From Rothia aeria (GTDB lineage Bacteria; Actinomycetota; Actinomycetes; Actinomycetales; Micrococcaceae), in contig AP017895.1 of the NCBI GenBank assembly GCA_002355935.1, forward strand, positions 1,612,001 through 1,676,000: DNA of 64,000 bases, read 5' to 3'. Below the pieces are notes generated by a model. The model was not told the DNA's origin and did not search any database. It saw only the letters and a program-made list of their open reading frames with translations. This document shows positions 4,294 to 20,662 of the stretch, piece by piece (positions within the stretch are counted from its first letter, which is position 1; each line of letters begins with the position of its first letter). The position numbers were made by a program, and so were the translations under genes.

Positions 4294-6704
4294 ATGCAAG
4301 ATTCGCAACAGAATACGTTCACCTCCGCTCAGCGCCTCACCCAGCTGGCGGTGCTAGTGGACTATGACGCCCCAATGGAAGAACTGCAGAAGACCGTGGG
4401 CGGGGCTGATGAAAAAGAACGGGCCATATTGGCAAAAGTTCTGGAACGCACTGAACTCCTGGATAGCCACGGCGCACCCCGGCCCGGTGCGTTCTATATC
4501 TTGGGCGCGCTGGGTACTGCGGAGCAGGCCGCTTATATACTGCGCTGCACACTGTGGCATCTTGAGCATGAAAAGTTCTCAACAGCCCTTAGTTCCTTCA
4601 CCACCGGTGCGCGGGAACGCCCCGATGAGTGGGTGCTGGGGTTTAGCAATAATCCGCTGACTATAAACTATTGGGACGCCATACGCCCTATCTTGCGGGA
4701 GCGTGGGCTCAAAAATACTTCCGTCTCTGCCCTGCTGGGTTTCCGAGAATCCATCCCCGTAGTCACTGGCGAATCCTCGCGGGGGCAGAAAGATGTTTTA
4801 GAGTTTTTCGCCCGGAACCCCGAGCTGCTAGAGCATGATTTCTGGGAGCTTTTCTGGGTGGACGGGCTGCTCTATGAGACATACGGGCACGGCCGAGGCG
4901 ACACTGTGGCCCTGGTACGCCTGCTGACGAGCCACTATGCGGGGTTCCGTGACCGTGTTCTTGACGAGTGCCTGGCCGCTATGCGCCGTGATTTTCGCGA
5001 AACCCGTATTTTTTGGGTGCTCTACCGTGGGCTGGAGCCCACCACTGCCGAGAACCTGCGGCGCCTGCCACAGTTATTGGCCGTATTGGAGGCACCGCAG
5101 TCGGCTCTTATCAGTTTTGCTTTGGATACGTTGGCGGGAACAGTGCCAGCAATGAATACCGAGCAAGCCGCCTCATTGGTGGATGCGTCCCATGCGGTGC
5201 TGTACCGTACCGAGAAGAAGGTTCTTCGCGCCCAATTGCGTGTTTTGCGGAAAGTTGTAAAACACACCCGGAATTTACGCAACAGGTGAGTGGGATAATG
5301 GCCGAGACCGTAGAAGCCCTGCCCCTGGATCTGCAGGATACGGCGCGTAAACTTATGACCCCCGATGATACGGTGCCCCCTGAACCCACTGGCCGTACCG
5401 TGAGTATCCCAGATATTATTCCGCAGGATCGTGCCCCCGGTGAAAACCTCACACCACTGCCCCCAATAGATAATGAGGCTGAGTTTCTAGATGTTCTCTT
5501 CGGCCAGCTGGAGGGGGAAGAACACGGCAAGAACCTGCAGCGGCTGCTCGTTTACCTCCATGAGCACCCGCGTGTTGAGCTGGATACGGCAACCCGTAAA
5601 CGTATCCACACGCACAACAGGACACGGACCTCTGATACCCCTTCGGCCCAGGCGCTGTATCTGAGTTACCTGGTTCTGAAGCATCACCTCAACCAAAACG
5701 TACTGCAGCCCGGCACCTTCCCCGGTTATCGGGAGAATACTTATGCAAGTCCCTACGGGGTACTCCACCGGCAGTTGGTAGCCCTTGACACCGGCGCTGA
5801 GGCGCCTCTGCCGCCGGTTCCACTTCCCTCCGTTGAACGCATCTGGGAGAGGAACGTGGGCAAAAGCTACGGAACACCACAAGGCTGGTATGAGCTTTGC
5901 TATGAGGGCCTCGGCAGAGAGTTCATTACCTGGAACGCGGTTGGAGAAACCGAAGAAGACGCTGATTTGCCGCTTGAGCAGGCGGCTCGTCTGACACCCG
6001 CTAATATACGTCTTGCGGTTTCGGACCGTGCCCAGGATGCGTTGAGTAATCCGCAGCACCGTGCGGTAGTGCAATGGTACGCGTGGCTTATGCAGAATAA
6101 CCCCGATATTTTAGCAGCCCACTACATGCCTTTAGCTATTGCCGCCTCACTGTATAAGAAGTCGTATGGGTTAGATACTGTGCTCGGTGCCCTTGCAGAA
6201 AGCTGGCGGGTGCTGACAGAACCATCCCACTCGCTGCTGGCCATTGCCTGTAATGCGGCCGGTCCCGATAACCGTGCGGCAGCAGCCGAGACCCTAGCGT
6301 GCCTTGCCGACCGGGGAATGCTGGACACCAATGCGTACGCAGCCGAGCTGCGCAGGTTACTGGAACGGAACAACCTCAAAGCGCCTCGCATAGCCCAAAC
6401 CTTGGCAGATGCCGCCTCCATTAGCCCGCTGGCGGGGTGGCGTACCCTGCAGATACTCGTAGAGGTTCTGCCGGTGGTAGGAAGAGTGAACCGCGGTGGT
6501 GTGCTCGTGCAGCTATTGGTGCAGCTAGCCAAAGAATACGGGGTGAGCGTTACTATTCCGGATGAGCTGCTTCCCAAGATGAAAGGCTCAACGGTGCTGG
6601 CAAAAAACCTGCGAGTGTTGCATAAACTTACCGAGCACCCGAGTGATTTAGCAGCCCAAGCCGCCGAACAGGCCCAACAAGTAGCAGCCGGTAACGCCTG
6701 CTAA
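4294..6704 (+). CDS. DUF6493-type array protein 3 (one frameshift)
   Basis: Repaired length is 803 residues. It has the same architecture as its neighbours: GADEKERAILAKVL near residue 35, RPDEWVLGF near 110, FWELFWVDGLL near 185, RTEKKVLRAQLRVL near 305, a SIPDIIPQDRAPGE linker, then QWYAWLMQNNPD, ISPLAGWRTLQIL and KGSTVLAKNLRVL. The frame is broken at AAAA 5259-5262. Adding one A turns the dead end into KVVKTHPEFTQQV and continues to the stop at 6704. The 103 bases at 6412-6514 differ from 3918-4020 of the preceding gene by one base, a sign of recent gene conversion or unequal exchange. Function is unknown. Confidence 0.65.
6412..6514 (+). repeat. Near-identical tract, partner copy in array gene 3
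   Basis: Partner of 3918-4020, with one difference in 103 bases. Sequence on both sides is clearly diverged between the two genes. Confidence 0.8.
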
Positions 6705-6781
6705 TACCTAGGAGGCATAGCAGAATGCCGTTAGCGGCCTATACAGCACGAACACCCCGCCATATATGAGAAAGAAATACT

Positions 6782-9255
6782 ATGACCACCTCAGAACATA
6801 AGACTCTCACACTCACCGAGCGCCGCACCCGCCTGAAGCAGCTGATCGCTGAGCACAAGCCGGTTGAGGAATACCAGAAAGTGCTTTCTGGGGCTACCGA
6901 GGAGGAACGCGCCTCACTAGTGCGTACCCTCTCGCCCACTAAATTGAAAGAACCCAAAAACCGGTTTACCCCGTTGGGGACGTACGCGGTTACTGCCCTC
7001 ACTAAAAAACCTGCCCGAGCCGCGCAGCTTATTCTGCAACTGTGCTGGGATAACTATAAACACCGGGACGCCATCGCCCGGTACGCGGCCGCAGGCGCCT
7101 CCGAACGCCCTAACGACTGGGTGCTGGAATACGTGGCGGAAACCTGTTTCATGGATGAACTATGGCCTCTCAGTCAGACATTACTGCGGGAACGCGGGCT
7201 CATTTGTGAAGACGAAGAGTACCTGAAAGGATTCCAGGCGCGTATTCCCGCAGTGAACACTGCCTCGACCCACAACCACCAGGAAGCCCTGGAATTTTTG
7301 CAGAAGATCCTGCCCGCTTTGAGGAGTTCTGGGCACTTTTCCGGGTGGAGGGCGCCATGCTGGAGGAATACACCTACGGATTTTTCCACCCCAACGGCAG
7401 CATGCTAGCCCTCACTAAACTGCTGAGCGACAACTACAGCGGGTTCCGTGACCGGGTTCTTACCGAATGTTTGCAGGCGATGCTCCGTGATTTCTCCCCG
7501 GCTAACACGCGGATATTCCACGCGCTTTACCGCGGGATGCACCCTACCGAAGCTGAGAACCTCAGCCGCTTCGGTACCCTTGTGTCCGTACTGGGCGCGT
7601 CCCCTTCAACCTCCGTGGGCCTAGCCCAAGACATGCTCACCCCACTTATCCCGCAGCTGGACCAGGAGCAGGCGGCGGAGCTCATGGACGCCTCTGCCAC
7701 TGTGCTTTTGCGCACCGAGAAGAAAGTGCTTCGCGCCCAACTGCGGTTACTGACGAAACTGGTGAAAACCCGCCCCGAATGTGCAGCCCAAGTCAGTGCC
7801 CTCGTGGCGGACGCCGCCAACACCCTGCCGTTAGATGTGCAAAGTACCGCCCGTAAACTCATAATTGATGAGCCTGTCACTGCCCCGAACACCCCCGACA
7901 CTGAGGGCGAGACGGGAAGCATTATTATTCCCGAGGCGACCCCGCGTGACCGTGAACCGGAGCGGGAGGCGGAACCGCTTACCCCTATCGCGGATGACGC
8001 TGAATGCGTAGAAGTTCTTCTCAAAGTTTTGGAAGAAGAGACGCAAGAGACACAGCTGCCGCGCCTGCTCGCCTATATGGTGCAGAGCCGGAAAGCCAAC
8101 CGAAGCATTGAGATGGATAAGGCCGCCCAAGAACGCATATATAGCCACAATAAGAATTTGCGTTACTGGGATGCGGTGAAGGACGAGCTGCGGGTCAGCC
8201 TCAGCTACCTGGCTCTCAAATCCTACCGGTTAAAGCTCACCCACTGTGATTTTATGCAGAAATATCGGGAAAACTATCTGTTCTCGCGCGCGAAGTCACG
8301 CGGGCCGCAGGTACTTTTGCAGGAGCAGTTCGCGTACGCCGATAAACCCTATAAAAAGGAACTGGAGCCTGTGGTCACAACCCCGCTTCCGGCCGCGCAG
8401 TGCGTGTGGGAACGCGTTGCGGTGGACTGGTCAAAGCGGCGGAACGTGTATGTTGCGGGCAGGATCGTAGAGGGCTTCCCCGGGTATGTTGGGTGGCGCA
8501 AACTGGGTGTTACCCGGCAGCCAAAAGACGCCTCGTTTGCTGAGGCAGCACTCACGGCCGTTGTGATTTCTGCCGACTACAGCGAGAATATGGACAAAGC
8601 TAGTACCTGCCGCTGGTACCGGCTGGTGGTGCAGTGGTGCGCATGGCTTCTATACAATAACCCGGATATTTTTGCGGCCCATATGATGCCTCTGATGACG
8701 GCGGCCTTATATGAGAAGAAAGTGTACGGGCTAGAAATTGTGCTCACCGCCCTTGCACAGAGCTGGCGTTCTCTTGGCGCACCCGCATACTGTGCACTGG
8801 GGTTCGCTACTGCCGCTAAAGACACCGGCTACCGCGCCCTCGCGGCGGAAACACTCGCCACTCTCGCAGACCGCGACATGTTTGATACCTACGCGTTTTC
8901 TGCTGAATTAATGCAGCTTTTAAAAGATAAATATGTGCCAGCAAACCGTGTTGTTGAGACTCTGCAGGATGCTGCTTCTATTAGCCCGTTGGTGGGGTGG
9001 CGTGTCTGTCAGGTGCTGCAGGGGCTGCTGCCGGTGGTGGGGGAGATTAATCGGGGTGGTGCGCTCGTGCAGTTACTTGCTCATTTGGCGGGGGAGTATG
9101 GTGTGAGTGTTGAAATTCCTGAGGTTTTGCGTCCGAAGATGAAGGGTTCGACTGTGTTGGCGAAGAATCTGCGGGCGTTGAGCGCGCTGGGTCCGTGTTC
9201 GACGGAGCTTGCCCGCCAAGCACAAGAACAGGCTAACAACACCAACCCTGCGTAA
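6782..9255 (+). CDS. DUF6493-type array protein 4 (one frameshift)
   Basis: Repaired length is 824 residues. N-terminal motifs are GATEEERASLVRTLSP, VTALTKKPARAAQ and RPNDWVLEYVAE. A central region holds FWALFRVEGAMLEEY, YSGFRDRVLTECLQAMLRDF and RTEKKVLRAQLRLLTK. The C-terminal region has VVQWCAWLLYNNPD, ISPLVGWRVCQVLQGL and KGSTVLAKNLRALSAL. The frame breaks at G 7306, and restoring GG gives the reading QKDPARFEEFWALF. The last 290 bases change abruptly to T- and G-ending codons and are about 95% identical to the same part of gene 6 (counted by eye), so the 3' end is a homogenised module. ATG 6782 follows a purine-rich GAGAAAG ribosome site. Function is unknown. Confidence 0.65.
8963..9230 (+). 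repeat. Homogenised 3' module, copy in array gene 4
   Basis: These 268 bases align without gaps to 14136-14403, with about 13 mismatches counted by eye (about 95% identity). The flanking parts of the two genes are much more diverged. The segment also shifts to T- and G-ending codons relative to the gene around it. Confidence 0.8.
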
Positions 9256-9297
9256 CCGCAAGCGCCAGCACCGACACCATACCCCAGGAGATACCCC

Positions 9298-11879
9298 ATG
9301 CCCCAGCCAATCACGCTCACTGAGCGCCGTGCCCGCCTCAAAACCATGCTTAAAAGCACCGGCCCCATTAATATGGAGGCCTACCGGGAGGCTATCCGCG
9401 GAGCCACCGAAGAGGAACGCGCCTCGTTGGCACGCACCGTACAACCCGCAAAAATACTTGGAAGTGAACGGGAAGCAGCCCAAGCCCCGAAGCCCTTACC
9501 AGTTTAGGGTTCTACCTGCTGGGTGCTCTGACGAGCAGCCCCGCCACCGCAATCCGTACCTGGTGTACGGTGGGGTACATTTCGCGTACACGGTGCAGCG
9601 CCGATACCCACAGGGAACACCTGGGATGGTTCATAGCGGGCCTGACCGAGCGGAGCGACGAATGGGTTCTGCAGCTTGCCGCAGTGGAGCACGACCCGTG
9701 GACGGAAGCCCAAGACGCATGGGAACCGGTTCATACGGTGCTTCGGAACCGCCACCTCGTGAGTGAATCCCCAGCCTACCTGGAGCTTTTGACCCACATG
9801 ATTCCGCCGATGCGCGCCAATGAGGAAGCATTCAAACGGTACAACCCCCACAAGCTAACAATTGAAAAGTTCTTCCGGTCAGACCCGCTTCTGCTGGAGC
9901 ACGACTTTTGGGCACTTTTTAGAAGTGAAGGGCTGCTGCGCGGCCGGCTTGGTCAACGTGATGCCGCCATAGCTTTCATGCGGTATATGTGTGAGCGTTT
10001 TGAGGGCGTGCGTGAGCGTGCGCTGGAGGAAACTCTGCGGGCGCTACTGCGTGATTTTTCGGCTGCGAACAGCGCTATTTTCGGTCACCTTCACCGTGCT
10101 CTGCAGCCAAGCAGAGAAGAAATTTTGGGGCTTTTCCAGCTGTACGTATCGGTGCTGGGGGCAGCCCCCTCACCCAGTGTTTCACTGGCGCAAGATATGT
10201 TGAATACCGCAGTTGATAAGGCTTCCGGTGAACAGGCGCTAGCTGTGGTAGATGCATCGGCAGCCGTGCTATTTCGCACCGAGAAGAAGGTGCTGCGCGC
10301 CCAGCTGCGGTTACTGACGAAACTGGTGAAGGCCCACCCTGAGTGTGCTGCCCAGGTCAGCACCCTAGTGGCGGATGCCGTGGAGTCTATGCCGCTGGAT
10401 GTGCAGCCGGGTGCCCGCAAGCTTATCGCCCCCGCAGCAGTATCTACAAGCACTGTTGAGGGGACAGACAAGGGTATAACGGATGCGGGTAAAACCGCCG
10501 CGAGTATACACATTCCCGATATAACACCACAGAAACAAGAACCCGTCGGGTTCTTCGCCCCGCGTGCGCCCATTACAAATGATCACGAGTTTCGGCACCT
10601 ATTCTGTGACGGGTACGATGGTGCGGACATTCCCCGGATGCTCGCCTACCTCATGCAGCACCCGATGGTCGAACTAGGCCCTGAAGCCCTCGCGCCGCAT
10701 CAACTCATGCAGGGGTTTAACACCGGACCACGTGATGCCGACCCGGGCGCATACATGAGGTACCTCACCATGCGGCCTCATCTTAAAGATGCGGACAACT
10801 ATAAGGCTCCAGTGCTTAAGTTTCAGAAGTACGAGAAAACTAAACATCATCCTCTCTCATCTCGTCCAGCTGATGTGCTGGTGCAGCAGTTCAAATGGGT
10901 GCACGCACACCAGACGGAGCAGCAGCCGGTTGTTGAAGGCTCTCAAGAGCTGTGGCCATACCGTACGGAGCTTATTGCGCTTATTACCGAGCCGCTACCG
11001 GCTGAAAACTATGAATGGGCACGCAGCTGGGCGGTATTCCAACATATATCAGCCTGGATCTGGCTGGACGCGAAGAAAGTCCCCGGCGGCCGCCTACCGC
11101 AGTGGCGGCAAGTCTTCTACCCGCACGCTGCACCTGAAAAGTCCCCGTTTGCGTGGCGGGTGCTGAACGTGCACCGGGTGGCTGGCGAGTACCAGCGTCG
11201 CATAGAGGAGGCCCAGTACGGTACCGGCATGGAACTGGTTGTTCAATGGTATGCGTGGCTGACCCAGAACACCCCGGATGTGCTGGCTGCCCAGTTCGCG
11301 CCCGCATGTTTCGCGGTGGTGTATGAGACGCAATCGGCAGGTGCCGAGGTGCAGGTGCTGCGGGCTCTTGCGGATACGCACAGTGTGCTGGGCGCCCCAT
11401 CGTACTGTGCAATAGCGGCGTGTGCCAGCGCGCGGCAGGAACAGGTTCGTGCCCATGCGGCCGAGTGCATCGCTGCCCTAGCGGGGCGCGGCATGCTGGA
11501 TCCTGATGCGTTCTCAGCGGAGCTTTCGTGGCTGCTGAGTCACCAATATGTGCAGGCGCAGAGGTTAGTTCGCACCCTCACAGATGCCGCTTCCATTAGC
11601 CCGTTGGCGGGGTGGCGTGTCTGTCAGGTTTTGCAGGGGCTGCTGCCGGTGGTGGGGGAACTGAACCGGGGCGGTGCGCTCGTGCAGTTACTTGCTCAGT
11701 TGGCCCAGCAGTACGGAGCGGTCATTAATATCCCGGAGTGTTTGCAGCCAAAGATGAAAGGCTCCACTGTGCTGGCGAAGAATCTGCGGGCGTTGAGCGC
11801 GCTGAGTCCGCACCCGACGGAGCTTGCCCATCAAGCACAAGAACAAGCGCTCACAATACTAAAGAACAACCCGTCATAA
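9298..11879 (+). CDS. DUF6493-type array protein 5 (one frameshift)
   Basis: Repaired length is 860 residues. The first 65 residues carry the GATEEERASLARTV signature. The frame then breaks at CCCC 9485-9488; an added C restores an ALTSLGFYLLGALTSSPATA reading that aligns with the equivalent alanine-rich helix of the other copies. Further on are RSDEWVLQLAA, FWALFRSEGLL, RTEKKVLRAQLRLLTK, an unusually long linker with IHIPDITPQKQEP, then VVQWYAWLTQNTPD, ISPLAGWRVCQVLQGL and KGSTVLAKNLRALSAL. Its 3' end is a mosaic: 11581-11700 matches genes 4 and 6, the next 60 bases do not, and the final block matches again. Function is unknown. Confidence 0.65.
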
Positions 11880-11896
11880 AAACGCACGGAGAAACT

Positions 11897-14431
11897 ATGC
11901 CCAGCAACAATATGCCGTCTTCTTTCGCTCAACGGCGCGCGCTCGTGAAAAACTATTGGATAATAATGCACCCGTGGCAGAGTTCCGCCGCGCTTTAGCG
12001 GGAGCCGGAGAAGAGGAACGTGCAGCCCTGTACCGTGTTCTTTCGCCCACCCGGCTTATGGGCAAGGACTACACCTACCACCCGGTTGCGCTCTACGCTA
12101 TTGGGGCGCTCACCGAAAAGCCCAGCCGGGCTGCCTCGCTGCTGCGGCAATTTAACCGGCATACCGGGTGGCAAGACAATATTGCGCAGCAGGCGGGGCG
12201 TTATTTTGAAATGGGGCTCAATGAGCGCCCTGATGCATGGGGGCTGGAATTTATTGACCAGTATGTGCAGCTTGCAGAAGGTAAAATATATTTCGAGATT
12301 GCGCACCGTTTTCTGCGTAGCCGCCAGCTGCGCTGCGTCAGTGTCGGGTACCTGTATGCGTATAAGAATTACGTTATACGAGATAACTCTGTATCATCCC
12401 GAGGATTTGCCCCGCTTCTTGACATATTTAATAATGATCCGCTGCTTTTAACACAGGAGTTTTGGGATCTTTTCAGCAACGGAGTGGGAGATGAATTTTA
12501 TGTTGCCCCGGGGCGCCACCTAAAAACCATTGAGTTGCTGCTTTTCTGCAGGAGCATTATGAGGGGTTTCGGGAGCGCGTGTTTGCGGAGTCTCTTAAAG
12601 GGCTGCTGGCCGCAGATACTAACCCCGACGCCACAACATACCGCTCCTTCTACTTGGGTATGCAGCCAAACGGGCAAGAAATCACAGAGCATGCCACCGA
12701 ACTTATCGCGCTGCTGTGCTCTCAACCATCAACCGTAGTGGGGCTTGCCCAAAAGCAGCTGCTACCTATACTGGGGGAGCTGACCGATCACCAAGTGCAT
12801 ACACTGGTGGATGCCTCGCAGGCTGTTCTAATGCGTACCGAAAAGAAAATCCTGAAGAGCCAGCTGCGCATACTCGCTGAACTAGTGAAAGCCCGCCCGC
12901 ACCTGTGCGAACAGATCACCCGCATCGTTGGGCAAGCAGCCAGTACCCTCCCTGTAGAGTTGAGGGACCAAGCCGGTCATATCACCGGGAAGCTCCTCAG
13001 CCATGCTGCGGATAACACGGATACGAACGCTCCCACAGCTCAACCCGGCAGTATTCCCGATGCGGTACCCCAGCACCGGGAACCAGATGATTTCTTTACC
13101 TCCCGGCCACCGATCGATAGCGCTGCGCAGGCGCAAGAAATACTTTTCGAGCTCCTCAACAATACCGGTGACGGGGCTGATATTCCGCGGTTATTAGCCT
13201 ATATTGCAGAGTACCGCAATATTGACTTAGATAAAGCGCAGCAGGAATATCTGAAAAATATCTCGAAAATAGTGACGGAAATACCTACAATAACCTCGAA
13301 TACCTTGTAGGAATAATTCTTAAATTATGTGCCAAAGAGGGGGATAGTGTTGCCCCGCAAAAATTCCCAGGATACGAATATGACCGTCGCATCAGTAGTA
13401 TTACTGGGGAATATTTAGAGGACGGACAATACTATTCCGACGAAGAATACTGGGATGCTGAGTGCACGGTAGAGATAAGGAATAGCCGCGGCCCGGTTGC
13501 CCTGCTGAGCGAACAAATATCGCGCATACTCACCCCCGACACCTGCGGCAGCGGCATCGTGTGTGAACCGCTGCCAGCGGTACAACGCACATGGCGGCGT
13601 ATTACCGTGCCCCAGAAACCACTCAACGCCGACTTTGAACGGATCTACGGAAACTACTATGTGGCCTGGGCCGTTCACGAAGAACAGCCTGTTACCACCG
13701 AAACCCCGTTTGAGCAGGCCGCCCTGCTGGTCGATAGCGTCAGGGCAGAGTATGAGAGCCGGGACACTGAGCAGCGCGAACTGCCAGCGATGCGCGCCGT
13801 CATCCAGTGGTACGCGTGGCTAACTCAGAACAACCCAGATATATTCGCAGCCCATATGATGCCCGCCGTTAAAGGCGCCAAATTTGCGAAAGTCATACAC
13901 GGTATGGAGCCTGCACTTGAAGCTTTCGAACACGCCCACCAGGTGCTGGGCGAGCCTTCATACTCGTTCCTAGCCTACGCCGCCTCCGCAGCTGAACGGC
14001 AGTACCGTTCCGCCACGGCACAGGCGCTTGCAGCCCTCGCGGACCGCGATATGCTTGACACCGGCATGTTTGCCGCAGAGCTGGGGTGGATGCTGCAGGG
14101 GGAGTACGTGATAGTTGGGAGGGTTATCGAGACCTTGCAGGATGCTGCTTCTATTAGCCCTCTGGCGGGGTGGCGTGTCTGTCAGGTTTTGCAGGGGCTG
14201 CTGCCGGTGGTGGGGGAGCTGAACCGGGGTGGTGCGCTCGTGCAGTTACTTGCTCAGTTGGCGGGGGAGTATGGTGTGAGTGTTGAGATTCCTGAGGTTT
14301 TGCGTCCGAAGATGAAGGGTTCGACTGTGTTGGCGAAGAATCTGCGGGCGTTGAGCGCGCTGAGTCCGTGCTCGACGGAGCTTGCCCGTCAAGCACAAGA
14401 ACAAGCACTAGCTATATCTGACGAAGAATAG
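11897..14431 (+). CDS. DUF6493-type array protein 6 (three frameshifts)
   Basis: Repaired length is 845 residues. Three single-base losses break it: AAAAA 11948-11952, TTTT 12542-12545 and AAAA 13266-13269. Adding one base at each gives one protein with AGAGEEERAALYRVLSP, ERPDAWGLEFIDQY, RTEKKILKSQLRIL, SIPDAVPQHREPDDF, IQWYAWLTQNNPD, ISPLAGWRVCQVLQGL and KGSTVLAKNLRALSAL. ATG 11897 follows a GGAGAAAC ribosome site; it is chosen because the reading QRRALVKKLLDNNAPVAEF is recovered across the first break. This is the last array member, and a strong promoter for a small RNA begins 10 bases after its stop. Function is unknown. Confidence 0.65.
14136..14403 (+). repeat. Homogenised 3' module, copy in array gene 6
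   Basis: Partner of 8963-9230. It encodes the ISPLAGWRVCQVLQGL to KGSTVLAKNLRALSAL region. A shorter version covers 11581-11700 of gene 5. Confidence 0.8.
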
Positions 14432-14441
14432 CCATTGAAAA

Positions 14442-14470
14442 TTGACAATACTACATGTCGCGCATATATT
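14442..14470 (+). promoter_or_regulatory. Consensus sigma-70-type promoter of the small RNA gene
   Basis: TTGACA at 14442-14447 and TATATT at 14465-14470 are separated by exactly 17 bases. This near-perfect vegetative promoter predicts a start near 14477, well away from any CDS start. Confidence 0.8.
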
Positions 14471-14476
14471 GGAACC

Positions 14477-14688
14477 TGAAAATCACAGAGTGGACGATTC
14501 GTCTTCATCAACAGTGGCTGCTATGACAGCACCGCTGTACGGGATGTAGCGGGTTCGAATCCCGTAGAAGGCTCAATCGCGGATCATGCATTCTCTTACT
14601 TTCTCTTGCCTGGTTACGCAATTTCAGAGAATGCGCTTACCGCGAGCACTTTATTGATGACGGGTGGATATAATCCACCCGTCATTTT
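14477..14688 (+). ncRNA. Small RNA with tRNA-like domain (possible YrlA-type Y RNA)
   Basis: This is a transcript of about 212 nt bounded by a consensus promoter and a strong intrinsic terminator, with no sensible ORF. A canonical T-arm is visible: a 5-bp stem (GCGGG/CCCGT) around the loop TTCGAAT at 14549-14565. It is flanked by an acceptor-like helix, GTCTTC 14501-14506 with GAAGGC 14567-14572, extended by GATT 14496-14499 with AATC 14575-14578. Inside lies an arm at 14511-14538 with two stacked helices and a 6-base loop. A second hairpin follows: TCGCGG 14577-14582 with CCGCGA 14640-14645, an internal loop, then 9 bp GCATTCTCT/AGAGAATGC. There is no CCA end and no standard D-arm, so it is not an ordinary tRNA. 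Bacterial Y RNAs of the YrlA class mimic tRNA and bind Ro60/Rsr; that identity is inferred, and no Ro gene is in the window. Confidence 0.55.
14657..14688 (+). terminator. Intrinsic terminator of the small RNA gene
   Basis: TGACGGGTGGA (14658-14668) pairs perfectly with TCCACCCGTCA (14674-14684) around a 5-base loop, followed by TTTT. Confidence 0.85.
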
Positions 14689-17160: not shown

Positions 17161-18134
17161 CTAAGCCAGCGACTCCTCAGTAGCAAAAATCAGGGTTTGT
17201 TTCTGCCCGCGGGCACCCACAGCGGGAGTTGCCAGTAACAGGTCGGCGGTTAGCTGCTCCGCAGGAATCTGCGCCCCCTGCAAAAGGCGAGTCGTCGCCT
17301 CCTGTTTATCGCCGCCGGTGATGAGGAAGAAAATATGGCGTGAACTATTAATCACCGGAAGGGTCACCGAAACCCGCTCGCTGGGGGCTTGGGGGAGTCC
17401 TTCACCATCACCGTCACTGCTTTCGCACCATCCACCGGGTCTTCGGGCAGCCCCGTACCCAGCAGAACCTGCTGACGCCCCGGAAAGAGGGAAGCAATAT
17501 GCCCATCCGGGCCCATCCCCAGCAGGGTCACATCAAACACCGGCACCGGCCAACTATCCGACCCAGACCCGCCGCCGCAACCGCAGCCCCCGCAGCCGCA
17601 GCCTCCGCCGGAAGGCTCAGAATCGGCAGCCCCACCGTGGCCGCCCACTAGCGGAAGCTCGGAGGCGCCCTCGGGCATTTCAACCCGCACCGGATCGGCT
17701 GAACCAGCGAATTTACGCATCTCGTAGGCGTAATGTTCGGCGGCAGCCTCCACATCAATCATCACGTCTGAAGGGCCTATCCGGTGTGCGTTCTCCACCG
17801 GGAAGCCGTAATCAGTGAGGTCAGCGAGCAGCGCCTCAATCGCCTGCCCATCGTTACGCTCGGCATCCCGCTCAGGCACAAACCGCTCATCCGAGAACCA
17901 GAAATGCACACGCGACCAGTCGATATCTTTCACGCGAGCAGAGGCCGCCCACGCCCGGAGCGTCGCAATACCCATGGTGCCGCCAGTGAGCGAAACATGC
18001 GCCACCGTACGTTCCGTGAGCACATGCTCCAGAATGTCAAAAATACGTCCCACGGCGTCAGCCGCCAACGCCTCACGGGTAGGATGAGCTACCAGAGTCG
18101 GGGTGCTCTCACCAATATTGTTAATCTTAGGCAT
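17161..18134 (-). CDS. pgl: 6-phosphogluconolactonase (one frameshift)
   Basis: Hydrolyses 6-phosphogluconolactone in the oxidative pentose-phosphate pathway. Repaired length is 324 residues. Family motifs include SLTGGTMGIATLRAW, VHFWFSDERFVP and LLGMGPDGHIASLFPG. The frame breaks at the run 17383-17387 (GGGGG on the plus strand). One more base joins it to the C-terminal part VTLPVINSSRHIFFLITGGD, which is the expected lactonase end. ATG 18134 overlaps the stop of opcA by 8 bases, implying translational coupling. It is longer than the usual 240-260 residues, partly because of a Gly/Cys-rich insert (GGGCGCGGCGCGGG) encoded around 17570-17610. Confidence 0.9.
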
Positions 18135-19113
18135 CAAAAACCTCCGGGTATTCCCGCTCGTCAAGAAGCGGCTCAGAGTCACAGCGGGTGGGGTGCATCT
18201 CGATCGTGGGGAACGCCGACTTCAGCACTTCCCCGTATGTGTCATCAGGGTCAAGGCGACGCAGTTCCTCAGAAATGCACTCCGCCAGGGTGCGCACCGG
18301 CAGCGCAATCTGCTGCTGCGGGGCGTGCGGGGTTTCCAAGATCGCAATGCTCTTGCCCGGGCGGAACATCACAGTCTGCCCGTCCTCACGCTCAATGGCC
18401 ACACGGTACAGGCCGCGCTCCGCCGCGCCAATAGTGGCCAAACTAACCTCGGCCTGCAGCTTCCAGCCCAGCCAGGCACCCAGCAGAACCACCGACGGGG
18501 ACTTCTCAGAACCCCACACCACCACCCGTTTGACCGGGGAGTACGGCATCTGTTCCATGAGCGCCGCCAGCTGGGTGCGCCACAGCGTCAGGCGGGTCCA
18601 CGCCAGGTCAGTATCCCCGGCCTGGTATACCTGCGACAGGTGGGTTAACACAGCCATCGGGTCATATGCGCGCGCGGAATCGGTAATGCGGCGCTGCGCA
18701 ATCTTCCCAAGTGAATCCTCGGCCGGGTTATCGGGCACATAATGGGGCCACCACACCACAATCGGCGCGTCCGGCAGAAGCAGCCCGGAGATCAGCGCCT
18801 CCGTCGGTTTGGAGGCACTGCCCCAGCCGCGCAGAATAATGAGTTCTGAGGCGCCAGCCTCACCACCCACATGGATCTCGGCATCCAGCTGGTCGGGGTC
18901 GGTCTCACTGTGCGCGATGTGCACAATAATGCGGCTGGGGTGCTCATGGGAGGCACGAATCGCGGCATTCAGTGCCTCACGGGAATGTCCCTTCTCAGCC
19001 AGTACCACCAGAGTCAGCACACGGCCGCTGCTGAGGCTGCCGTTAGCCGCCAGCTGTTGGGAAAGTTCCTTGGAAATAGCAGAAACATTCGTGTGGTGCA
19101 GATGCGAAATCAC
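18127..19113 (-). CDS. opcA: Glucose-6-phosphate dehydrogenase assembly protein OpcA
   Basis: A 328-residue protein that in actinobacteria and cyanobacteria promotes assembly and activity of G6P dehydrogenase. Recognisable family segments are TLVVLAEKGHS near residue 30, IIVHIAHSETDPDQLDAEIH, LLLPDAPIVVWWP near 115 and RRITDSARAYDP near 145. It starts at GTG 19113, whose last bases overlap the TGA of zwf (GTGA), and it ends overlapping pgl. The zwf-opcA-pgl order is the standard actinobacterial arrangement. No frameshift was found. Confidence 0.92.
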   Translation of the reverse strand: MISHLHHTNVSAISKELSQQLAANGSLSSGRVLTLVVLAEKGHSREALNAAIRASHEHPSRIIVHIAHSETDPDQLDAEIHVGGEAGASELIILRGWGSASKPTEALISGLLLPDAPIVVWWPHYVPDNPAEDSLGKIAQRRITDSARAYDPMAVLTHLSQVYQAGDTDLAWTRLTLWRTQLAALMEQMPYSPVKRVVVWGSEKSPSVVLLGAWLGWKLQAEVSLATIGAAERGLYRVAIEREDGQTVMFRPGKSIAILETPHAPQQQIALPVRTLAECISEELRRLDPDDTYGEVLKSAFPTIEMHPTRCDSEPLLDEREYPEVFDA

Positions 19114-20662
19114 GGGCGCCTCCAGGCACGGTTATCGCGTTCAAGCATCTGATGCGCCGAACGCGGGCCCCACGAACCGGACTCGTAAGGCTCAGGTTTA
19201 ATCTTGTGCTCTTCCCAGTACTCCTCAAACGGGTCAAGGATCTTCCACGAAAGCTCAACCTCCTCATGGCGGGGGAACAGCGGCGGCTCACCCAAGAGCA
19301 CATCCAGAATCAGGCGCTCATACGCCTCCGGCGACTCCTCAGTGAAAGAATGCCCGTACCCAAAGTCCATGTTCACGTCACGGATCTCCATCTGAGTGCC
19401 GGGAACCTTCGCCGCAAAACGTATGGTCATGCCCTCATTGGGCTGCACCCGGATCACGATTGCATTCTGGCCCGCAGGAACTTCCGTTTCCTTACCGAAT
19501 AAGCGATCCGCTGACTTCTTAAACAGCACCGCAATCTCAGTCACGCGGCGCCCCAAGCGCTTACCGGCGCGCAGGTAGAACGGGGTGCCCGCCCAGCGGC
19601 GGTTATCAATACTGACCTTCAACGCCGCGAACGTCTCGGTACGGGAATCAGCCGGGATGTCCTTCTCATCAAAGAACCCGTTCACATGCTCGCCGCCCTG
19701 ATACCCGGGAGCGTACTGGCCCAGCGCGTACGAATTCTCAAGGTCATCAACACGCACCGCCTCAAGCACCTTCGCCTTCTCAGCCCGCAGGTGCTTAGAG
19801 TCCAGACTCAGGGGCTCCTCCATGGCGGTCAGCGCAAGCAGCTGCAGCAGGTGATTCTGAATCACGTCGCGGGCTGCACCTACCCCGTCATAGTATCCCG
19901 CGCGGGAGCCGATACCAATATCTTCAGCCATCGTGATCTGCACATGATCCACGTAGTTAGCATTCCATACCGGCTCAAACATCTGGTTCGAAAACCGCAT
20001 CGCCAAAATATTCTGCACCGTCTCTTTACCCAAATAATGGTCGATGCGGAACACTGAATCCGGCGGGAACACCCGCTCAACGATAGCGTTCAACTCACGG
20101 GCCGACTCAAGGTCATGCCCGAACGGCTTCTCCACCACCACACGCCGCCACCCAGTGCCAGCATGCGTTGTGCGCGCATCTTCCTCACGGCTGGCCAGCC
20201 CATGCTCGGCAAGCTTCGACAGCACCTGCTCGAAAGCCTTCGGGGGATCGACAGGTAGAATGCGTGATTACCCTGGGCACCGCGCTCATCCAGCTCCGCC
20301 AGAGTGCCTTTGAGACGCTCATAAGCGGCATCATCATCGAACGCACCCTGCACAAAACGCATACCCTTCTGGAACTGGTTCCACACGTCTTCACGGAACG
20401 AAGTGCGCGCATGCGCCTGCACCGACTCCCGCACATAGGCACGGAAATCGTCGTCGCTCCACTCACGGCGGCCATACCCAACCAGCCCAAAACTGGGCGG
20501 AAGCAGGCCCCTGTTCATCAGATCGTAGACAGCAGGAAGCAGCTTCTTACGGGCGAGATCACCCGTGACGCCGAAGAAAACCAGGGCAGAAGGGCCCGCA
20601 ATACGCGCCAAACGCCGGTCGCGTGAATCCCGCAGCGGGTTCGACTCGTGGCCGATAGTCAC
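19110..20662 (-). CDS. zwf: Glucose-6-phosphate 1-dehydrogenase (one frameshift)
   Basis: Catalyses NADP-dependent oxidation of glucose-6-phosphate, the first step of the oxidative pentose-phosphate pathway. Repaired length is 517 residues, normal for the family. The Rossmann motif FGVTGDLARKKLLPA is near residue 28. The substrate motif FRIDHYLGKETVQN is in the second part, followed by YLRAGKRLGRR. The frame breaks at GGGGG 20242-20246 (plus strand); one added base restores the reading YLSIPPKAFEQVLSKLAEHG. I chose GTG 20662 because AAAGGA lies just upstream; the open frame extends to a TTG at 20698. Confidence 0.93.

Follow-up and report, generated by a model that had tools for sequence, protein, structure and literature searches.

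The Rothia aeria locus described here is best read as the source of a compound small RNA, in which a conserved hairpin core is combined with a lineage-specific tRNA mimic. The hairpin represents a family of RNAs that is widespread among bacteria, seems not to have been described before and finds no match in Rfam 15. That this is a real structured RNA family is, in our judgment, virtually certain. Its copies share a structure with covariation; in the loci examined they keep constant company, on the same strand, with the gene for an SCO0854-like protein, and most of them are preceded by a -10-like element.

Organization of the Rothia aeria locus

The features of the locus are collected in Table 1, with positions counted along the window, that is, the whole 64,000-nucleotide stretch of R. 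aeria DNA that was analyzed. An initial annotation of this DNA had proposed a free-standing tRNA-like RNA gene running from a consensus promoter to a perfect terminator. A promoter scan recovered the promoter, and this is the sole plus-strand match above 9/12 between 13000 and 16500. Transcription would start near 14477. The roughly 212 nt on its 3' side fall into three blocks, namely the tRNA-like element, the hairpin and a terminator-like stem, and the segment from 14470 to 14688 folds better than its shuffled versions (z -5.0; none of 200 shuffles was equally good). The terminator stands in part: its stem is perfect, but just four T follow and no terminator at this place appears in the output of the consensus scan. 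Taken together, these data support the presence of a gene for a small RNA that includes a tRNA-like part. The covariance search with tRNA, tmRNA and YrlA models that the initial annotation had suggested gave no support for a known class, as neither ARAGORN nor Rfam at its cut-offs reported a tRNA, a tmRNA or any Rfam match on the RNA-gene stretch.

Table 1. Features of the RNA locus and its surroundings (window positions)
Feature	Position	Strand	Remarks
DUF6493/DUF7825 gene array	4294..14431	+	several frames broken or overlapping
Sigma-70-type promoter TTGACA-17-TATATT	14442..14470	+	11/12 consensus
tRNA-like element, 73 nt	14501..14573	+	acceptor-like helix, one long arm, T-arm, U at discriminator place, no CCA
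Long arm CAGUGG-c-UGCU/AGCA-CCGCUG	14512..14537	+	
T-arm GCGGGTTCGAATCCCGT	14549..14565	+	
Two-stem hairpin RNA	14577..14645	+	stem 1, 14577-14582/14640-14645
Hairpin internal loop AUCA/CUUA and stem 2		+	stem 2, 14587-14596/14626-14635
Loop motif UACUUUCU	14597..14604	+	Rothia form of the family's UUCCUUCU
Terminator-like stem and four T	14658..14688	+	from sequence and folding; absent from consensus scan list
SCO0854-like protein gene, 754 aa	14760..17024	+	constant neighbor of the hairpin RNA family

The gene context proposed for the RNA, between a DUF6493-type array and a TerD-like gene, is broadly correct, with the reservation that the upstream frames are partly broken and that no RING was detected downstream. 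PF20103 matches the R. aeria genome seven times between 1603468 and 1622220, in the region of the array. On the minus strand, pgl-opcA-zwf occupies window positions 17364-20225; opcA and zwf likewise lie near the SCO0854-like gene in three further genomes (G034, G021 and G008). A phage or plasmid source for the window DNA was considered and dropped, as searches returned just short matches at E 0.8 in the phage collection (30 records) and none at E 1 in the plasmid collection.

The hairpin and its relatives in Rothia

The second long hairpin with an internal loop, a component of the initial annotation, is present and carries a 4x4 internal loop. Covariance model R1, built from four Rothia and without the window copy, finds it at E 1.7e-8; model R3, whose training set includes the window copy, scores it at 51.6 bits (E 2.5e-9). 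The same hairpin, written with other stem letters, lies upstream of the SCO0854-like gene in four other Rothia, where it is followed by TTTTTCTTTT. Covariation across Rothia genomes, which had been put forward as a check, is indeed seen, 6 of 16 pairs being changed on both sides between two lineages. In G034, a promoter-like arrangement read by eye (TTGACC, 18 bases, TACTCT) stands directly before the hairpin. In the window, no TANNNT occurs at -22 to -13 before 14577; the tRNA-like element ends three bases from the hairpin and occupies the usual place of the promoter.

Of the 35 Rothia genomes, a sequence pattern and model R1 each identified the hairpin in exactly five, and these five are also the ones with a close SCO0854-like gene (E <=1.6e-83); G009 and G014 have just weak, partial SCO0854-like matches. 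Two genomes separate this gene from the DUF6493 array. G009 has the array beside pgl-opcA-zwf and lacks both the close SCO0854-like gene and the RNA; in G019, where DUF6493 has no match, both gene and RNA are kept. The RNA in Rothia thus tracks the SCO0854-like gene rather than DUF6493, in a co-occurrence that rests on few independent lineages. A second SCO0854-like gene of the R. aeria genome (789340-791543; positions 4341-6541 of locus L139) is broken by a stop or frame change and lacks the hairpin.

A hairpin family beyond the genus

Two further covariance models, R2 and R3, were derived from model-fitted alignments, the latter from 13 copies. When 396 genomes of the order were searched with the protein, two carriers outside the genus emerged, from another family (G213 and G339), and in both of them R2 finds the hairpin just behind the gene (E 2.1e-5 and 3.7e-4). 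An RNA search at the same level returned 3 of the 396 genomes, all Rothia, and missed these two carriers, so that large RNA searches are no proof of absence.

The association was then assessed in loci picked by the protein alone. The protein has matches at E 1e-30 in 44 of the 394 genomes searched from the class; from these matches the best-scoring 30 loci were taken, and two Rothia loci were left out. R3 detects the hairpin in all 28 of these best-scoring loci (E 4e-12 to 5.2e-4). The 31 copies that they contain are all on the strand of the gene, the hairpin lying 5' of the protein match in 17 loci and 3' of it in 11.

Plasmids extend the distribution further. A tblastn search found SCO0854-like relatives in 31 plasmid records, and 23 loci were examined. 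At 19 of these, R2 or R3 detected the hairpin near the gene with E up to 1, in three cases weakly, with carriers in Streptomyces, Kitasatospora, Embleya, Niallia, Vibrio, Variovorax, Deinococcus and, weakly, Segatella. The weak matches (Variovorax, E 0.032; Segatella, 0.05; Deinococcus L166, 0.0024 to 0.012) could be due to chance; at L166 the score of a plain palindrome came close (E 0.007). In the four other loci (L169, L175, L176 and L177) neither R2 nor R3 found the hairpin at E up to 1, and at L175-L177 just 13-25% of the protein query was matched. Eight of the 19 positive loci belong to the training set of R3 (L155, L156, L158, L160, L161, L163, L165 and L166). The 15 loci outside it comprise nine matches at E <=1e-3, one of which (L171) is near-identical to a training locus, two weak matches and four without a match.

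The hairpin is present in tandem in Niallia, Vibrio and Deinococcus, at the Streptomyces locus L156 and at three further class loci. A second hairpin-like copy can also be discerned by eye near 6365-6425 of Variovorax L159, where the models do not report it, and a second copy on the minus strand of L206 (1151-1243) bears a T-arm-like GGTTCGACTCC within its apical loop. Rfam, searched at its cut-offs with 14 family loci, returned nothing except tRNAs in one of them.

Anatomy, covariation and controls

In family members, stem 1 comprises six pairs and ends in GG/CC; beyond an internal loop lies stem 2, with ten pairs and CU/AG at its end, and the apical loop opens with UCCUUCU and contains the loop motif CUUCCUUCU. 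In the first copies of the class loci, CTTCCTTCT is present in 26 of 28. Of the 28 class loci, 27 have a -10-like TANNNT 13-22 bases ahead of the hairpin, against a mean of 1.3 and a maximum of 6 in base-shuffled sequences, the interval (-22 to -13) having been set after the sequences had been seen.

In alignment A8, which holds 13 copies, 96.6% of the cells are paired and 13 of 16 pairs show double changes, a level reached by none of 500 shuffles; the 59 double-change cells compare with 16 in shuffles (again none of 500 as high). Alignment A10, made of the 31 class copies, has 95.7% of its cells paired. Here 10 of 16 pairs are double-changed, against a mean of 7.5 in shuffles, 6 of 500 of which reach this number; double-change cells number 87, against 33 in shuffles (none of 500 as high) and at most 15 in slid controls. 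Having been fitted to the model, the two alignments are biased towards it; the slid and shuffled controls are far lower. R3 was also run on the window together with 52 control loci, 25 of them from around tRNA genes of the same genome (some overlapping) and 27 of them former pattern hits. The window copy alone scored, the next best match having E 4.3. A pattern search of genome contigs gave 27 matches, of which 25 were rejected as family members, as were both viral ones (best R1 values, E 3.5 and 7.2). A hairpin-finding script recovered some family copies, not all.

The SCO0854-like neighbor

The protein encoded next to the hairpin, on the same strand, matches the MXAN_6230/SCO0854 family RING protein model NF041916 at E 1.4e-45. 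Like its relatives, it matches the middle and the TerD-like part of that family. It differs in its score (155.8 bits, far below the cut-off of 600) and in that no RING was found in it, and the family description names no RNA. The window protein has no Pfam match at E 0.001, and just two implausible ones up to E 5. Prok-RING_4 is present in 5 of 11 aligned members of the SCO0854-like family, for which a PDB profile search gave weak matches to TerD (E 0.016) and RING; none of the 33 profile matches listed was to TROVE. For the middle domain, a structure predicted on the basis of two sequences was all helical, with a mean pLDDT of 52, a quality too low for fold comparison. A scan of genome contigs with the window protein, which reaches close relatives only, confirmed no relative.

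The initial annotation had suggested that the neighborhood reflects a shared RNA-related role. Two loci of the family offer hints in this direction, and nothing beyond hints: in Variovorax L159, rtcR and a DUF6283 gene are divergent from the RING gene, and an RNA ligase family gene is among the neighbors at the Vibrio locus. Elsewhere, VWA is among the neighbors, together with an AAA ATPase in Streptomyces L162 and with MoxR in Deinococcus L173. TerD has been named as a possible binder of nucleotide derivatives (PMC7159879). In the open-licence PMC literature, we found no paper on DUF6493, SCO0854 or MXAN_6230 and none on a small tRNA-like RNA of Rothia; a search for TerD or RING with noncoding RNA in Streptomyces gave none relevant by title among the matches listed.

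The tRNA-like element

The 5' block of the RNA has several attributes of a tRNA, most of them recognized in the initial annotation. An acceptor-like helix of 6 bp pairs 14501-14506 with 14567-14572. The D/anticodon-like arm, originally placed at 14511-14538, is a long bulged arm that replaces both the D and the anticodon arms; a D-arm is absent, and 14573 is followed by CAA in place of CCA. The T-arm, described as canonical, has a 5-bp stem of tRNA-type sequence and a tRNA-type loop, GTTCGAATC; it is nevertheless not the preferred fold in silico. Depending on the 5' end assumed, its pair probability is 0.05-0.16, whereas a competing 7-bp hairpin reaches 0.31-0.95; for the acceptor helix the values are 0.08-0.41. 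With an early transcription start, the 5' leader pairs with the T-arm region or the competing hairpin in thermodynamic folding.

The T-arm is not a chance resemblance, as GGTTCGAATCC occurs ten times in the R. aeria genome, nine times inside tRNA genes and once at the RNA gene; a backwards-read control occurs nowhere in the genome. In a comparison that covered the tRNAs of the examined loci of the same genome, a part of its tRNAs, the 3' end of the element came closest to that of tRNA-Thr(UGU), to which it is identical at 20 of 23 positions. The element resembles a tRNA in its T-arm, acceptor-like helix and length, and tRNA-Thr in its 3' end; it differs from a tRNA in its single long arm, in the missing CCA and in not being called as a tRNA by ARAGORN or Rfam; by these programs and by inspection, 14501-14573 does not form a cloverleaf with D and anticodon arms. 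The tRNA-like domain of tmRNA consists of a T-arm and an acceptor without an anticodon arm. The Rothia element shares this layout, whereas ARAGORN made no tmRNA call and Rfam had no match at the RNA gene.

Other tRNA-like sequences were seen at loci of the family. On a Segatella hominis plasmid (L174, approximately 2284-2409), a stretch read by eye has a D-arm, a T-arm, acceptor-like ends and a long replaced anticodon region; it is not called by ARAGORN and adjoins an SCO0854-like gene and a weak hairpin match. Three tRNA matches follow the SCO0854-like gene in Embleya L164 (6466-6804), two of them tRNA-Arg by ARAGORN. Near the gene in L200 (approximately 767-823), a stretch resembling a tRNA 3' end and terminating in CCA, without an ARAGORN call, is possibly an attachment-site remnant.

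A decayed tRNA left by an integrated element had been named as an outcome that would undo the idea of a dedicated RNA gene. The 5' part could be just that, a decayed tRNA-Thr or attachment-site remnant that happens to precede a hairpin functional by itself. The similarity to tRNA-Thr(UGU), the low probability of the T-arm fold and the fact that no counterpart of the element was seen in the four other Rothia carrying the hairpin RNA are all consistent with such an origin. On the other hand, the acceptor-like pairing is kept even though the sequence of its 3' strand is not the one found in tRNA-Thr, the element measures exactly 73 nt, the one good promoter of the region precedes it, and the distant Segatella homologue is accompanied by a tRNA-like sequence whose anticodon region is replaced. 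On balance, decay of the 5' part seems a possible but rather doubtful explanation, and it cannot account for the hairpin, whose conservation and covariation extend far beyond Rothia. A tRNA-like part that is functional in this Rothia is the somewhat more probable reading.

Discussion

We propose that the R. aeria transcript is a compound RNA whose hairpin core probably works, as a cofactor, with the adjacent SCO0854-like (RING/TerD) protein. The partnership of hairpin RNA and protein, taken by itself, is the likelier part of this proposal, even though a gene neighbor of the hairpin need not be its binding partner. It seems reasonable to assume, with slightly better than even confidence, that the two form a physical particle in which the loop is the reading part.

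A different view would have the hairpin act in trans as an antisense RNA, its CUUCCUUCU loop blocking purine-rich ribosome-binding sites and the protein being just a regulator or chaperone. A single-stranded pyrimidine loop conserved in 26 of 28 class loci would suit this function, and the loop presumably resembles the anti-Shine-Dalgarno end of 16S rRNA. The steady association of the hairpin with a single protein family is, however, more in keeping with a dedicated partner, and we consider the antisense alternative unlikely. Less plausible still is a cis-acting leader, attenuator or terminator of the SCO0854-like gene. The 17 class loci with the hairpin 5' of the protein match, some then showing T-rich runs, and the TTTTTCTTTT behind the hairpin in the four other Rothia could be interpreted in this way, but the 11 loci with the hairpin on the 3' side, the -10-like element in front of hairpins in either position, the tandem copies and the conserved loop motif speak against it.

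Finally, the initial annotation had tentatively placed the RNA in the YrlA class of Y RNAs, which would bind Ro60 and tether it to an exonuclease; although the T-arm and tRNA-like shape of the 5' part, and transcript ends that can pair around two domains (minimum-energy fold from 14477), recall such RNAs, this identity is highly improbable, as TROVE/Ro60 is found in none of 59 genomes (R. aeria and 58 relatives), YrlA is unmatched in Rfam even at E 10, and the conserved part is the other hairpin, not the tRNA-like element. The TROVE search did return a match in 1 of 14 control genomes (Deinobacterium chartae). The Rfam search at E 10, in a library that we take to include the YrlA model, listed just sraA, a plastid 3'UTR and a microRNA on this stretch, all far below their cut-offs. 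Therefore, we do not class the RNA as a Y RNA.

The comparison is instructive as an analogy. A Y RNA is a small structured RNA encoded beside one dedicated protein gene. The present system resembles YrlA/Ro60 (Rsr) in this arrangement, in the tRNA-like module found in this genome and in the RNA-repair-type neighbors at two family loci. It differs in having no TROVE protein, in its two-stem hairpin with a CUUCCUUCU loop and in its SCO0854-like neighbor.

One could envision the following scheme for the proposed RNA-protein partnership. The SCO0854-like protein would hold the two helices and the small internal loop as an RNA-protein particle, leaving the CUUCCUUCU loop exposed to pair with purine-rich RNA or to be read by the protein, and the particle would serve as a sensor of RNA damage or conflict. 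The T-arm and acceptor helix of the element that stands in the usual promoter place in this Rothia may recruit tRNA-processing enzymes. RNase P can act on an acceptor and T-arm; cleavage by RNase P in front of the element and by a 3' endonuclease behind 14573 would free the hairpin, which begins three nucleotides on. Release by tRNA-type processing is suggested by the position of the promoter before the tRNA-like element and by the short distance from its end to the hairpin. Alternatively, the element might act as a tRNA decoy. It is tempting to speculate, though with considerable reserve, that SCO0854-like RING/TerD proteins and their dedicated CUUCCUUCU-loop hairpins make up a Ro60/Y RNA-like system without Ro60 in Actinomycetota, Bacillota, Pseudomonadota and Deinococcota, one that repeatedly recruited tRNA mimics, as in this Rothia and in Segatella, to sense or buffer tRNA damage in conflict.

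For the odd RNA gene of R. aeria, these findings provide an account in terms of a conserved core and a lineage-specific tRNA mimic. More generally, a strongly covarying RNA family found beside the protein gene in 28 of the 28 best-scoring class loci is a candidate nucleic-acid partner for a protein family of unknown function, and the hairpin RNA gives the first concrete handle on the SCO0854-like proteins. The ideas that TerD/RING stress proteins may act through RNA, and that Y-RNA-like particles may exist without Ro60, have now become testable.
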